A stretch of 64,000 bases of DNA from an uncultured Cocleimonas sp. (GTDB lineage: Bacteria > Pseudomonadota > Gammaproteobacteria > Thiotrichales > Thiotrichaceae), in NCBI RefSeq assembly GCF_947495625.1, contig NZ_CANLZW010000008.1, forward strand, positions 62,001-126,000. Reading direction: 5' to 3'. The notes below the pieces were generated by a model. The model made no database searches. It was not told the DNA's origin and saw nothing but the letters and a program-made list of their open reading frames with translations. The position numbers were made by a program, and so were the translations under genes. This document shows positions 28,065-51,672 of the stretch, in pieces (within the stretch, counting starts at the first letter, position 1; the number at the start of each line of letters is the position of its first letter).

Positions 28065-28111
28065 TGCTTTTTTAAGTTTATAATTAGATGAGTTTTAAAT
28101 TTCTGTTCAAT

Positions 28112-28144
28112 AAAAAAGCCAAAGTATAAACTTTGGCTTTTTTA
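28112..28144. terminator. Intrinsic terminator after clpA
   Basis: GCCAAAG and CTTTGGC (28118-28124, 28131-28137) around a 6-base loop, with A6 before and T6 after. It should work in both directions, ending clpA and possibly the convergent minus-strand gene. Confidence 0.85.
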
Positions 28145-28214
28145 TGTTTGTTCTTAATAGTTAGTTGTTAGTTTTAGCTACTGATCGCTTTAAAAACTTA
28201 AGTAGCGTCTTTAA

Positions 28215-28925
28215 TTACACTGAAGATTTATGTGCAAATTTATTATTATGCAGATATATTACTTCAGCAATATGTCGATTATCTTTGTTTTCATTCGGAT
28301 ATAACTTTTCATTGATATTAGAATCTATTCTGTCGAATGTTGTATCGTCAACAACACCTGAGTTATATAAACACTCCAGGTTGTATATCAAGTTGTTATA
28401 TTGTTCTTCGGTATTATTTTGGTGTGTAGATACATCAATAACGCTATCTAAATTGTCGTCTTTTGATATTCTTTTAGTTAACTCATCAACAAAATCTTTA
28501 ATTTCATCATTATTAGATGAATCCGCATCTAAACTAAATTTGTACATGTATTGATTGTTAGATGGTCTGTGAAGTGAATATATTCTTTTTGATTTTGATT
28601 TAAAAAACAAAAGTACCATGCTGGACAATATTAGAGAAAAACTTAATAAAGTTAATATGAATTCCAGTCTATTGGGAAATGTAAATTGAAATAAAGATAT
28701 ACTTCCAGCCACTATAAGCAGCGAAGCAATTAAAATATGATTGTGCTTATTTAGTTGAGTTTTTTGAACATTCAGATATGCGTCAGTTAAATCGATTTTG
28801 TGATGAACGCTACCTATGGCAGATATTTCATTGACCTCTAGATTATTACTTGTAGATATCTTTAATTCGGTAGTTTTAAATAGACTACTTAAATAGATAA
28901 AATGTGAGTAGAGTTCTTTTTTCAT
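28215..28925 (-). CDS. Membrane protein of unknown function
   Basis: A 236-residue protein with two adjacent membrane helices (about residues 63-110), a short cytoplasmic or periplasmic N-terminal part and a polar, Asn/Asp-rich C-terminal domain of about 120 residues. It contains only one cysteine and no recognised catalytic motif. It is the last gene of a minus-strand run after the HhH-repeat and OmpA-like genes, 131 bases from the former, and converges on clpA. The AT-rich codon use is like its neighbours. I do not recognise the family. Confidence 0.55.
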   Translation of the reverse strand: MKKELYSHFIYLSSLFKTTELKISTSNNLEVNEISAIGSVHHKIDLTDAYLNVQKTQLNKHNHILIASLLIVAGSISLFQFTFPNRLEFILTLLSFSLILSSMVLLFFKSKSKRIYSLHRPSNNQYMYKFSLDADSSNNDEIKDFVDELTKRISKDDNLDSVIDVSTHQNNTEEQYNNLIYNLECLYNSGVVDDTTFDRIDSNINEKLYPNENKDNRHIAEVIYLHNNKFAHKSSV

Positions 28926-29056
28926 CTTAAGAATCAGCTTTCAAAAGAATGAATATACTTCACATTTCCCCTTAATAATTTTAAAACTACCTTGTCCGTA
29001 TTGTTACTCTGATTAAGCAAGTAAACGCTGATATATAGCAGATGAATGGCATCCTG

Positions 29057-30487
29057 CTACTTTCGGCCGCCAATTAATTCATTCTGTAATTTCTGCAAAT
29101 CTTCCCACCTACCTTCACTCGCAAGTTTCGCTTGTTGCGGCCAACTCTCTGGCTCATGAACTCTATATTGAGGGCCACCTTCATCTAATAAATTCTTTAA
29201 GAAATCTCTTTCTTGTTTAGATAAGTCCTTGAATGTATGTATTCCAGATTTTCCTAATAATTCTTGTATTTTAGGCCCAATGCCTTCAATTTTTTTCAAG
29301 TCATCTTTAGCTTTGGTTTCAGAATCCAGGGAGATATCTTTATTTTCGCTTATAAGTGATTTTTGATAATCTGCTAGAGCTTTCCAATCATTGTTGTGTG
29401 CCATCCCAGCTTGATGCGGCCAAGTGTCTGGGTTATGCATATTAAATGAATTGCCAGCGCTTTCCAGAATGTCTTTCAAGCGTTGTTGTTTAGAATTATG
29501 AAGTTGACTGAAGGTGTAAATACCATTTTTATTTAAAAGCTCTTCAATCTTTGGTCCTACGCCCTCAATTCTCTTCAGATCATCGTAATCTTTTAATTCA
29601 TTTTCGTTAAAGTTTTCATCATGGTTATCATTTGATGAAGGACTAATATCTGGATTCACTGTTGTTTCAGAATGCATGAACTCCTGATAAATGTTTAATT
29701 CTTCCCATTGACCTTTTTCAGCCATGGCAGCTTGATGGGGCCAGGATTCAGTTTCATTATTACTAAACCGGCTATCAGCATCTACAATGTAATTTTTTAA
29801 TACCTCAGTATCCGAATTACTTAGCTGTTGGAACGAATTAATTCCCTTTGAGTGTAATATTTCTTCAATTCTGGGACCTATACCTTCAATAACTTTTAAA
29901 TCGTCAGAGGCAATTGATATTGGTTGATTTGCGATATTTAGAGAAGCTTTCTGTGAACGGGAAATAAAAGCTTGATATTCGTTTAGTTTATTCCAATCAC
30001 CTTTGGCAGCTAAACTAGCCTGATGAGGCCAGGTTTCTATTTCTTTTCTATTTGTGTTTTTGGAGATAAATTTATCTTGAAGACTTTGTAAAGTTTGTCT
30101 TTTAATATCTCTTAAATCAGTGAAAGAATTTACACCTTCCTGTTTTAGGATAGTCTGTACCTCGGGTGTTATACCACTTATTTTGGTTAAGTTATCAATA
30201 CGAGGAGTTGTGTATGGTTGATCGTTATTATTTTTTACAACTCGAACTTCGCCTGTAGTTTGAGGCACATATTTTTTTTCTACAAATTTAGGAGAATTAA
30301 GTGATTGTTTAAAGTTATCTGTAGTTGAGTGATCAGGATTTATACCTTGAACTTCATTGCTACTGAATAACTTTTTAAGTAACCAACACAATATACAACC
30401 AAGTAAAAAAGCACCGAGTAGCATTATTAAGATTTCACTGGTGGCATCTTGATTATTAAAATTTCTGGTTACATCATTGTTAAACAT
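29057..30487 (-). CDS. Membrane-anchored protein with four helix-hairpin-helix/WPxQA repeats
   Basis: A 476-residue protein with one N-terminal membrane helix (about residues 20-42) and a polar linker, then four tandem repeats of about 95-105 residues. Each repeat begins LKxIEGIGPKIxELL, a helix-hairpin-helix signature, and ends with a WPHQAxxAxxGxWxxLxxYQ motif. Repeats two to four are well conserved; the first is divergent. HhH folds often bind DNA, but a membrane-anchored array more likely has a structural role. It is 61 bases downstream of an OmpA-type protein with calcium-binding repeats and probably co-transcribed with it, a pairing I have also seen in other bacteria. Confidence 0.7.
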   Translation of the reverse strand: MFNNDVTRNFNNQDATSEILIMLLGAFLLGCILCWLLKKLFSSNEVQGINPDHSTTDNFKQSLNSPKFVEKKYVPQTTGEVRVVKNNNDQPYTTPRIDNLTKISGITPEVQTILKQEGVNSFTDLRDIKRQTLQSLQDKFISKNTNRKEIETWPHQASLAAKGDWNKLNEYQAFISRSQKASLNIANQPISIASDDLKVIEGIGPRIEEILHSKGINSFQQLSNSDTEVLKNYIVDADSRFSNNETESWPHQAAMAEKGQWEELNIYQEFMHSETTVNPDISPSSNDNHDENFNENELKDYDDLKRIEGVGPKIEELLNKNGIYTFSQLHNSKQQRLKDILESAGNSFNMHNPDTWPHQAGMAHNNDWKALADYQKSLISENKDISLDSETKAKDDLKKIEGIGPKIQELLGKSGIHTFKDLSKQERDFLKNLLDEGGPQYRVHEPESWPQQAKLASEGRWEDLQKLQNELIGGRK

Positions 30488-30548
30488 AATTACTTCCTTA
30501 ATACGCTTTAACTATCTAGTTGTATAATTTTTTAATGAATATCTAGTT

Positions 30549-32528
30549 CTATATTTTTTGCAAAGGAACTATTTCTACACGCCTATTCATTAATCTTCCT
30601 TTTTCTGTTTTATTATCTTTAATGGGATCTGACTCACCGCGAGACATTATGTCTATTTGAGCTATCGGTGCACCTTTGTTTAACAAAAACTCACGTATAA
30701 CCATGACTCTTTTTATGCCTAGGGCGAGATTTGCTTTTTCTGATCCAATATTGTCAGTGTGACCCGTTAAAGTAATTGTGTTTTCTGGGCTTTTAGTCAT
30801 CCACGCAGCAATCTCATCAAAGTACTTAATTGCATCTTCGCTGTATTTGGGCTTTGCTGAGTAAAATGGGAAGTACAAACGAGCAGACTTGATATCTGCC
30901 TTTGTGGTGGAATCAATATATTCTATATTTAAGCTTTTTGAATCTACCTCTGCTTCAACTATTTTTTGTTCTTTTGAAGCGTTAGTATTTGTAGTATCAG
31001 TTTCTACTTTCTCTTTAGCTTCATCTTTTTTGATGTCATTAACTGTAGCTAAACCTTTAGTCATATCTTGAGTATCACTATCAGTAGTATCATCAGAAAC
31101 AACTACTTTTACAGAATCACTTTTATCGTCTTGTAAGGCATCAATGGTGCCATTACCATCAGAATCTAATGGTTCATCAATGTTACTCCCATATTCTTCT
31201 GCATCTGGTTTACCGTCATCATCCGAATCAATTTTTAAAGGGTTTGTACCATGCGTGATTTCAGTAGATGTTGGTATACCATCGTTATCATCGTCAGGGT
31301 CTACCGGATTAATTAACTTATCAGCATCAGTATCTTGCAAGTCATTACTATCAGGGCTTCTTACTTCATCATTGTCTTTTAAACCATCACTGTCAGTATC
31401 ATCAGACAATGGGTTAGTACCAATTCTAATTTCATAACGTGTAATAAGTTTATCGTTATCATCATCTTTATCGATTACATTAAGAATACCGTCAGAATCA
31501 GTATCTAAGGGTTCATTGATGTTTTTACCAATTTCTTCATTATCATTGATACCATCATTGTCCGAATCAGCTTTCTCGGGATCACTGCCTAACTTCTTTT
31601 CTATAGCGTCACTAATACTGTCATTATCCGAATCAGTATCGTCTATTGCATCGATAGCATCGATTATTCCATCGAGATCAGAATCCAGTGGGGCATCGAT
31701 ATTTCCACCAATTTCTTCAGAATCACTAATTCCATCATCATCAGAATCAGCTTTTTTAGGGTTGGTATTCAGTTTTGCTTCAAGAGAATCACTTAAACCA
31801 TCATTGTCTTGATCTGTTTCTTCTTCAGTATCAATGGCATCAATGATTCCATCTTTATCAGTATCAATAGGCTGATCTAGATTTTCGCCAATTTCCTTAG
31901 CGTCAGATATGCCATCACCATCAGTGTCTAATAGCAGAGAATTAGTTCCCAGCAATATTTCATTACTAGTGCTTATTGAATCATCATCATCATCTGCATC
32001 TAAGGCATTAATGATCCCATCAAGATCTGTATCTATAGGTTCTTTGGTGTTTTTACCTATCTCTTTAAAATCATTTATTCCGTCATCATCAGTATCCTGA
32101 CGTAATGAGCTAGTGCCTATTTTTTCTTCAATGGATGTCTGAATACCATCATTATCATCATCCTTATCTAATGCATCTATTATTCCATCTGAATCAGTAT
32201 CCAGAGGCGATTCAACGGATGCGCCAACTTCTTCGTTGTCAGGTATGCTATCTTCATCGGTATCTAAAAGTAGGGGATCAGTACCTAGTATCTTTTCTTC
32301 TTCATCACTAAGACCATCAGAATCAGTATCTATTACCTGGTTAGATGTGATATTTACCTTTTTATCAGGTTTGGTTTCAGTCTTAGGATTAGCAGCAAAC
32401 GTTTCTTCCGAATTAGAACCACAAGTATTTTTTATATTACAGGTGTAATGCCACCAGCTTCCAACAAACCACAGTGAAGCCGCTATCACCGTTAGCAAAA
32501 TATAAAATTTATTGGTACTTTTCTTCAT
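30549..32528 (-). CDS. OmpA-family protein with thrombospondin type 3-like calcium-binding repeats
   Basis: A 659-residue envelope protein. The N-terminus has one hydrophobic segment (residues 8-25). Residues 60-470 hold about seven superrepeats of 56-60 residues, each built on DTDSDGI-type Asp-rich motifs and an IGTNP/LGT boundary, as in calcium-binding thrombospondin type 3 repeats. The C-terminal 110 residues form an OmpA-like peptidoglycan-binding domain with TLTGHTDNIGS, a long helix, and SRGESDPI...NRRVEI. It is probably anchored at one end in the membrane and at the other to the cell wall. The next gene downstream is the HhH-repeat protein. Confidence 0.8.
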   Translation of the reverse strand: MKKSTNKFYILLTVIAASLWFVGSWWHYTCNIKNTCGSNSEETFAANPKTETKPDKKVNITSNQVIDTDSDGLSDEEEKILGTDPLLLDTDEDSIPDNEEVGASVESPLDTDSDGIIDALDKDDDNDGIQTSIEEKIGTSSLRQDTDDDGINDFKEIGKNTKEPIDTDLDGIINALDADDDDDSISTSNEILLGTNSLLLDTDGDGISDAKEIGENLDQPIDTDKDGIIDAIDTEEETDQDNDGLSDSLEAKLNTNPKKADSDDDGISDSEEIGGNIDAPLDSDLDGIIDAIDAIDDTDSDNDSISDAIEKKLGSDPEKADSDNDGINDNEEIGKNINEPLDTDSDGILNVIDKDDDNDKLITRYEIRIGTNPLSDDTDSDGLKDNDEVRSPDSNDLQDTDADKLINPVDPDDDNDGIPTSTEITHGTNPLKIDSDDDGKPDAEEYGSNIDEPLDSDGNGTIDALQDDKSDSVKVVVSDDTTDSDTQDMTKGLATVNDIKKDEAKEKVETDTTNTNASKEQKIVEAEVDSKSLNIEYIDSTTKADIKSARLYFPFYSAKPKYSEDAIKYFDEIAAWMTKSPENTITLTGHTDNIGSEKANLALGIKRVMVIREFLLNKGAPIAQIDIMSRGESDPIKDNKTEKGRLMNRRVEIVPLQKI

Positions 32529-32753: not shown

Positions 32754-33239
32754 TTATCTGGATAGTTTATGAATCCAGAAACTAATTCCCATTGTTAACA
32801 AGACCGATGTCGCGAAAACATATAAGCCATAATGTACATCCACTTTAGCTAATACTCCTAGTTTTACAGAAACTAGTAAAAGCGCTACCACGAACACATC
32901 AAGCATTGACCATTTTCCAAAAGTTTCTATAATTTGAAGGGTTTTGTCTAGAAAAGATCCTTGTTCAAAATGCATATTAGTAATTAATACCAAGCTTGCG
33001 ATTTTAATGGCGGGTATACATAAACTAAAAATAGCGATGACATAAAATAAAAACCATTCTTTTTGTAAATAAAGGCCTTTAATCGTCGAAAGTAATGAAA
33101 CAGTATTTTCAAAAAAATACATTTTTTCAAGTGTTAGTAGGGGTGCTGAGACACCTATAACAAGACAAGCCAAAGAAGCCATGAGTAATAAATTTATTAT
33201 TATTCCCTGCCTAGGAAAATTTCTTATGATAGATTTCAT
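32754..33239 (-). CDS. Paraquat-inducible protein A (PqiA)-domain membrane protein
   Basis: A 161-residue integral membrane protein with four predicted helices and one PqiA domain. Family features are the AIFSLCIPAIKI stretch after helix two and GKWSMLDVFVVALLLVSVKLG at helix three. Full-length PqiA has two such domains; this is a single-domain form. PqiA proteins work with MCE-domain PqiB in lipid transport, but no MCE gene is present here. It is divergent from acnB. Confidence 0.8.
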   Translation of the reverse strand: MKSIIRNFPRQGIIINLLLMASLACLVIGVSAPLLTLEKMYFFENTVSLLSTIKGLYLQKEWFLFYVIAIFSLCIPAIKIASLVLITNMHFEQGSFLDKTLQIIETFGKWSMLDVFVVALLLVSVKLGVLAKVDVHYGLYVFATSVLLTMGISFWIHKLSR

Positions 33240-51618: not shown

Positions 51619-51632
51619 ATTTACTGATATCT

Positions 51633-51672
51633 TATTTATGTATTTATGTATTTATGTATTTATGTATTTATG
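51633..51672. repeat. Five tandem TATTTATG octamers
   Basis: Five perfect head-to-tail copies of an 8-base unit (40 bases), ending 5 bases from the stop codon of the neighbouring minus-strand gene. Such arrays are prone to slippage. Confidence 0.9.

Follow-up and report, generated by a model that had tools for sequence, protein, structure and literature searches.

Proteins that are held in the inner membrane through an N-terminal helix and carry a C-terminal, peptidoglycan-binding OmpA domain, such as MotB and TssL, are known already, and so are tails of the helix-hairpin-helix (HhH) type on NuoE, on the ribosomal proteins L21 and S2, and on the phasin PhaH. RodZ provides a further point of comparison: it passes the membrane once, and its cytoplasmic fold, of a DNA-binding-like type, binds a protein and connects it with the wall machinery. 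Here we describe a pair of adjacent genes that brings an OmpA domain and HhH modules together, found in a stretch of 64,000 nucleotides from an uncultured Cocleimonas sp. of the Thiotrichaceae (NCBI RefSeq assembly GCF_947495625.1, contig NZ_CANLZW010000008.1, positions 62,001 to 126,000), which we call the window. One gene encodes an OmpA-domain protein, here named the OmpA partner, and the other a membrane protein with four HhH modules, each ending in a WPxQA motif, here named the anchor. The OmpA partner resembles MotB and TssL in its N-terminal helix and C-terminal domain; unlike them, it is paired with a single-pass HhH protein and has a TSP3 spacer. RodZ differs from the anchor in that its fold is helix-turn-helix, not HhH, and in having no OmpA partner. 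New, as far as the literature searched reaches, is the OmpA/HhH pairing: no description of the pair or of its module was found in that literature, which was judged from titles and the starts of abstracts, with most subscription journals outside its coverage.

By sequence, the only solved relatives of the module at E < 0.01 are protein-O of the photosynthetic RC-LH1 complex and an NADH dehydrogenase subunit. Protein-O of Dinoroseobacter shibae (PDB 8YY9 chain O; E 5e-6) sits in the inner membrane and, like the anchor, combines N-terminal helices with a long linker and a C-terminal HhH module; it differs in having a helical hairpin in place of one helix, and a single module. Its published description places the gene between nuoE and nuoF, notes the module on NuoE and other proteins while calling its function unknown, and states that the module part is not visible in the map (PMC12079452). 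Four NCBIfam models of NuoE, L21, S2, and PhaH with HhH tails (PRK12373, PRK12278, PRK12311, and NF045508) match the window modules at 1e-33 to 3.5e-19, all of them far below the cut-offs of the models and with the best stretches in their tail part. The AR2 repeat of NusA, which we take to lack the WPxQA end helices, may share with the modules a dual HhH fold, one that it uses for protein binding, a likeness for which a Z score of 7 is not decisive. AR2 is described as an acidic repeat of dual HhH fold that has SuhB and the C-terminal domain of the alpha subunit (alpha-CTD) as binding partners (PMC6614801).

Our preferred reading, to which we would give slightly less than an even chance, is that the two proteins of the OmpA/HhH pair together form a linker through the inner membrane, with modules that dock proteins. 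The OmpA partner would be held in the inner membrane through its N-terminal helix, cross the periplasm by means of a spacer whose length varies (in the window protein, a TSP3 rod), and bind peptidoglycan through its OmpA domain; the anchor would join it in a physical complex through one helix of opposite orientation, and show one to four HhH-WPxQA modules to the cytoplasm. These modules would serve as protein-docking units rather than as DNA binders, and the complex would thereby tether an assembly in the cytoplasm to one place on the wall. The computed observations from which we start are the pairing, the conserved membrane segments, the predicted orientation of the anchor, the OmpA fold with its binding residues, and the C-terminal position of the module in other proteins. 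Kept as it is in two phyla, the pair offers a possible physical route from peptidoglycan to cytoplasm. Its parts lie in the window as follows:

30549..32528, minus strand: OmpA/TSP3 partner, 659 residues, with an N-terminal membrane helix, an Asp-rich TSP3 rod, and a C-terminal OmpA domain
32421..32471, minus strand: conserved end of the membrane helix of the OmpA partner, W..GSWW.Y.C.IK..C, residues 20-36
31119..32333, minus strand: seven TSP3-type superrepeats, approximately residues 66-470, a spacer of variable length
30588..30857, minus strand: predicted OmpA peptidoglycan-binding domain, residues 558-647
29057..30487, minus strand: HhH membrane anchor, 476 residues
30362..30454, minus strand: membrane helix of the anchor, residues 12-42, predicted N-out/C-in
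29948..30196, minus strand: HhH-WPxQA module 1, the most divergent, with the hairpin GITPE
29669..29905, minus strand: HhH-WPxQA module 2
29342..29584, minus strand: HhH-WPxQA module 3
29063..29305, minus strand: HhH-WPxQA module 4, at the C-terminal end of the anchor

A sequence-only reading of this locus had given the coordinates and reading frames correctly, and much of what it said about the two proteins and their association is borne out by the profiles, models, and neighbourhoods that we set out here. Its estimate of about seven superrepeats in the OmpA partner agrees with the AlphaFold model, in which seven pairs of short helices follow one another at a spacing of ~56-60 residues, and Pfam finds TSP3_bac (8.6e-16, eight stretches) and OmpA (9.9e-15). 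The four-repeat HhH membrane protein that it described is matched by four HhH stretches in Pfam (HHH_5 4.7e-21) and a single long helix, and the WPHQA ends that it took for a signature occur three times in the anchor, with WPQQA once, as instances of a widespread WPxQA motif. It had also held that the two genes belong together, with a lack of co-occurrence elsewhere as the finding that would speak against this; they are in fact neighbours both in the family of the window and in Bacteroidota.

In the family of the window, the OmpA and anchor genes, which are 61 bases apart in the window itself, are adjacent at loci of Cocleimonas-type genomes, of Leucothrix, and of genus g8, at all four Thiothrix loci, where the anchor lies 150-159 bases after the OmpA gene, and in the genera g4 and g5 (L328, L327). 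We also used 80 named loci of 458 confirmed, which were found with the anchor alignment and favour anchors and Saprospiraceae. Among the 30 membrane-type module carriers at these loci, 27 have an OmpA gene within two genes on the same strand, immediately upstream in 23 cases; for the other carriers the figure is 7 of 61, six of the seven belonging to a cluster that also includes a membrane-type carrier or, at L136, a fragment of one. Two loci were moved from the membrane class to the others, L190 because by eye it is not membrane-type and L128 because it is an S1-type protein with a wrong start. Pfam recognises OmpA in 23 and TSP3 in 3 of 26 upstream neighbours, three of an original 29 having been dropped as anchors themselves. 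An even draw of 197 Bacteroidia genomes, the centre included, is the fairer sample, with lineages pooled and one place (G778 C42) left out; 14 of its genomes have the module at 1e-12, and in 12 of these an OmpA gene lies directly upstream of seven of nine membrane-type carriers and of none of 15 soluble ones (p = 1e-4). With G705, which was drawn, and the centre G692, which together contribute two anchors next to an OmpA gene and two membrane-type carriers lacking one, the counts become 9/13 and 0/21 (p = 1.4e-5). Gene calls throughout came from a longest-open-reading-frame script, and a hydropathy threshold defined the membrane helices; L263, L264, L271, L272, L277, L291, L302, L306, and others escaped the script and were recovered through other scans. 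Judged by gene order and sequence, the pair is real and conserved.

The two membrane segments tie the distant loci together. In the helix of the OmpA partner, nine of ten columns checked are identical in all 19 family partners, and the tenth, column 32, is I, L, or V; an end of the type Y.C.IK..C or similar recurs in part of the Bacteroidota partners and is missing from those of the L123/L126 type. A helix like EIL.MLL.AFLLG, similar to that of the family anchors, is likewise found in part of the Bacteroidota anchors. Because the helix end and the anchor helix recur in this way, the Bacteroidota partners and anchors look like relatives of the window pair and not like chance neighbours. No lipobox was seen by eye before Cys30 of the OmpA partner. 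Its OmpA domain model resembles the peptidoglycan-binding domains of OprF, OmpA, and MotB (structural search, best E 1.7e-9), and Asp592 is present in 19/19 and Arg607 in 17/19 family partners, both being found in the window protein; we take these residues to be the ligand-binding Asp/Arg pair of OmpA, which binds diaminopimelate. The number of D.D.D motifs, in turn, ranges over the 19 family partners from 0 (L075, L077) up to 19, for which reason the TSP3 rod appears to behave as an exchangeable spacer.

For the anchor, AlphaFold gives a long N-terminal helix (12-42) followed by four modules, with a pLDDT (the model's own confidence measure) >90 in most ten-residue blocks; all four window modules are full-length and carry the invariant alignment columns, and anchors of the family loci have one to four modules. 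Lys and Arg are more numerous after the helix than before it in 22/22 family anchors, in 19/19 Bacteroidota anchors from a hand-made list, and in 16/16 further membrane-type carriers, among which the Bacteroidota anchors left off that list fall. Since positive charge follows the helix in 57/57 anchors, the positive-inside rule predicts that the N-terminus is out and the modules are cytoplasmic. All four Leucothrix loci (L069, L070, L071, L072; e.g. L072:6425-6574) have a frame of 47-50 residues between the OmpA and HhH genes that resembles the N-terminal membrane segment of the anchor, and this separate frame suggests that the segment may have a role of its own. Leucothrix pacifica also encodes a membrane protein of 1123 residues with six divergent HhH modules (L132:4456-7827). 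Among the closest solved folds to the module are NusA AR2 (Z 7.1, 64 aligned, root-mean-square deviation 2.3), the RadA N-domain, and the HhH regions of DNA polymerases theta and iota.

The same module serves as a C-terminal tail on many other proteins, its last copy ending at most 15 residues from the C-terminus in 181 of 182 distinct carriers. Names within these 182 come from sequence motifs, which leave 41 unnamed, and the other identities given here, unless marked as by eye, from Pfam, which for 56 soluble carriers (3 of 59 having been dropped as fragments or for unclear starts) gives S1 in 20, S6 in 3, S2, L21, L27, and S16 in 2 each, NrfD in 5, nitrate reductase beta in 2, CBM48 in 6, and the P-domain in 3; carriers of the L19, L17, L20, ActD, and jacalin-like types were confirmed singly by Pfam. 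The genome of the window, 4.6 Mb in 89 contigs, holds six carriers besides the anchor, which the sequence-only reading had missed, with Pfam identifying S2, L21, the polyhydroxyalkanoate (PHA) synthase PhaC, and a cytochrome b561-type subunit. More widely, 44 of 276 gammaproteobacterial genomes have some match at 1e-4, many of them to the HhH part only, and 71 of 397 Pseudomonadota genomes have one at 1e-8, most among the matches listed being without the last helix. In a quick tree of 139 modules, read without support values, the fewest changes of partner number 29 (minimum of 60 shuffles, 60), those of lineage 29 (minimum 64), and those between anchor and soluble carriers 12 (minimum 38), so that, as far as such a tree tells, the module has moved between partners several times and yet is not freely shuffled. 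Small gammaproteobacterial proteins with a jacalin-like lectin domain also end in the module (L273 by Pfam; L278, L292, L304, and L308 by eye), and a PHA synthase (L059:9773-12235) has a long Lys/Pro/Ala-rich, histone-H1-like linker before it (Pfam HC2 4.5e-7, below the cut-off). Matches at L160 and L176, in metagenome-assembled genomes called Thermaceae and Paceibacterota, possibly come from contaminating contigs.

Carriers of this kind are candidates for what the linker would dock. An account which we consider unlikely on the whole goes further, treating the module as an address tag shared by many proteins at their C-termini and the OmpA/HhH pair as the envelope receptor that holds tagged ribosomes, PHA synthase, and respiratory enzymes; if it were true, translation and metabolism would be held at fixed envelope sites. 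It draws on the terminal position of the module, on the four tagged proteins named above from the window genome, on five rows in which a soluble carrier directly follows the pair (L123, L126, L131, L143, L144), and on the joint distribution in 196 Bacteroidia, where 8 genomes have the pair, 10 have soluble carriers, and 6 have both (p = 8e-8, not corrected for relatedness). Against it, four of those twelve Bacteroidia have soluble carriers only and two the pair only; all four Leucothrix genomes show full modules (E <= 1e-12) in the anchor alone, weaker divergent carriers such as L132 aside; and in Siphonobacter two anchors are the sole carriers at E <= 1e-12. The gammaproteobacteria G698 and G699, conversely, bear the module on S2, nitrate reductase beta, and proteins of the jacalin-like and L19-like types, with no OmpA gene near any of their fetched carriers (places were fetched in eleven of 20 carrier genomes, all except G686, G688, G690, G691, G694, G695, G697, G700, and G701). 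Given the five rows and the joint distribution, module-tagged proteins are attractive as the docked partners of the linker; they are not required, as Leucothrix, Siphonobacter, G698 and G699, and four of the twelve Bacteroidia show. That there is a general bacterial system of this kind, in which a repeatedly acquired C-terminal module is recognised by wall-bound HhH membrane proteins, seems to us doubtful. Should the modules bind one another, the way in which some bacteria bring ribosomes and enzymes to the membrane becomes directly open to experiment; should their target be a different one, the pair would still indicate an as yet undescribed machine tied to the wall.

The modules might also bind DNA, in which case the pair would fix the chromosome to the wall, a reading we hold to be quite improbable. 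HHH_5 and several HhH profiles of DNA polymerases and recombinases match the anchor, the RadA and polymerase domains are among the closest folds, and the EGIGPK hairpin found in many modules is of a type common in DNA-binding domains. Of 98 anchor-class modules, however, 79 have a negative net charge (the mean is -2.6, and some loci are counted twice), a figure that refers to the whole module; the hairpin lysine is lost in part of the anchor modules (GIGPFF, GITPE, GIGPTF); and the module is also borne by S1, S2, L21, L27, nitrate reductase beta, PhaC, and a cytochrome b subunit, proteins that to our knowledge have no need for DNA. For these three reasons, we favour protein docking over DNA. 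The sequence-only reading had placed the HhH repeats outside the cytoplasm, against which stand the prediction for all 57 anchors and the occurrence of the module on cytoplasmic proteins, and it had named a cytoplasmic, nucleoid-bound location as what would overturn it: the cytoplasmic half of this is predicted to hold, and on the nucleoid half the data speak neither way. Its view of the locus as a calcium-responsive envelope assembly strikes us as very improbable. The TSP3 repeats are real, in seven copies, and of their link to calcium the Asp pattern alone is seen; on the other side, the two family partners of 19 that have no D.D.D motif at all and the 3 of 26 upstream neighbours with TSP3, as opposed to 23 with OmpA, show the repeats to be dispensable to the pairing. 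Barely credible, finally, is a stator-like or transport machine in which the OmpA partner would act like MotB or TolR, with PqiA-like and HhH membrane proteins on the channel side. The N-terminal helix with an OmpA domain is as in MotB, and a PqiA-like gene, which had escaped the sequence-only reading (32754-33239), is next upstream of the OmpA gene at 17 of 21 loci examined, the window included; but it is missing from all four Thiothrix loci and did not turn up at the Bacteroidota loci examined, and no MotA/TolQ/ExbB-like gene was recognised beside the pair at 21 family and 80 named loci, as judged by helix counts and by eye, with no MotA or TolQ profile run.

Several observations also weigh against the wall-to-cytoplasm linker itself. 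Arg607 is lost in L063 and L065. The orientation of the OmpA partner is taken from the known location of OmpA domains and would be as proposed on that ground, the positive-inside count being ambiguous both in the family (after > before in 8, before > after in 4, ties in 7; n = 19) and in Bacteroidota (11, 4, and 4; n = 19). Membrane-type carriers without an OmpA neighbour exist, namely L114, L150, and L176 among the named loci, as well as L333, L339, L256, L269, L294, L295, L296, L324, L325, and L058 of the window's own genome; the neighbour of L150 resembles a shortened OmpA partner. The acidity of the modules is a mean, and basic ones occur, up to +9 in the anchor class and +11 elsewhere. 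NusA AR2 matches the fold no better than do the RadA or polymerase HhH domains, and Foldseek with the whole anchor model returned nothing below E 0.001.

Other arrangements of the same parts were met. The window genome has a second one, in which an anchor-like protein that has a coil and a single module (L057:6920-7735) is encoded immediately ahead of a coiled-coil protein carrying an OmpA domain (1.5e-10); L299 and L326 resemble it. An HU-like identity of the soluble carriers in the rows of L123 and L131, read by eye, was not confirmed by Pfam and is set aside. Four of the 15 soluble carriers in Bacteroidia, forming two ActC/ActD-like pairs, have an OmpA-domain gene downstream, which is a different arrangement: in these rows, which look like alternative complex III (L342:1637-5276, L346:1894-5574), two adjoining subunits end in HhH-WPxQA (in L342, ActD by Pfam and an NrfD-type protein), and the next gene ends in an OmpA-like domain.

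The remaining features of the cluster in the window are these:

32754..33239, minus strand: PqiA-like membrane protein, upstream of the OmpA gene
28215..28925, minus strand: two-helix membrane protein with no assigned family, probably accessory
28110..28145: terminator-like hairpin of 16 pairs, between the preceding gene (clpA by eye) and the last gene of the cluster

The PqiA-like gene precedes the pair and the two-helix gene follows it, the whole being flanked by two genes that by eye look like clpA, which is convergent, and acnB, which is divergent. The third membrane protein reported by the sequence-only reading is thus present, with two predicted membrane helices, but it lies outside the conserved core: it has no Pfam family above the cut-off, and a sequence search finds homologues in the same genus only (9 of 39 genomes, its own included), for which reason we set it aside as a core part. 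A promoter scan gave fewer sites than shuffled sequence and was not used. Elsewhere in the window, at 51632-51672, TATTTATG occurs five times in tandem.

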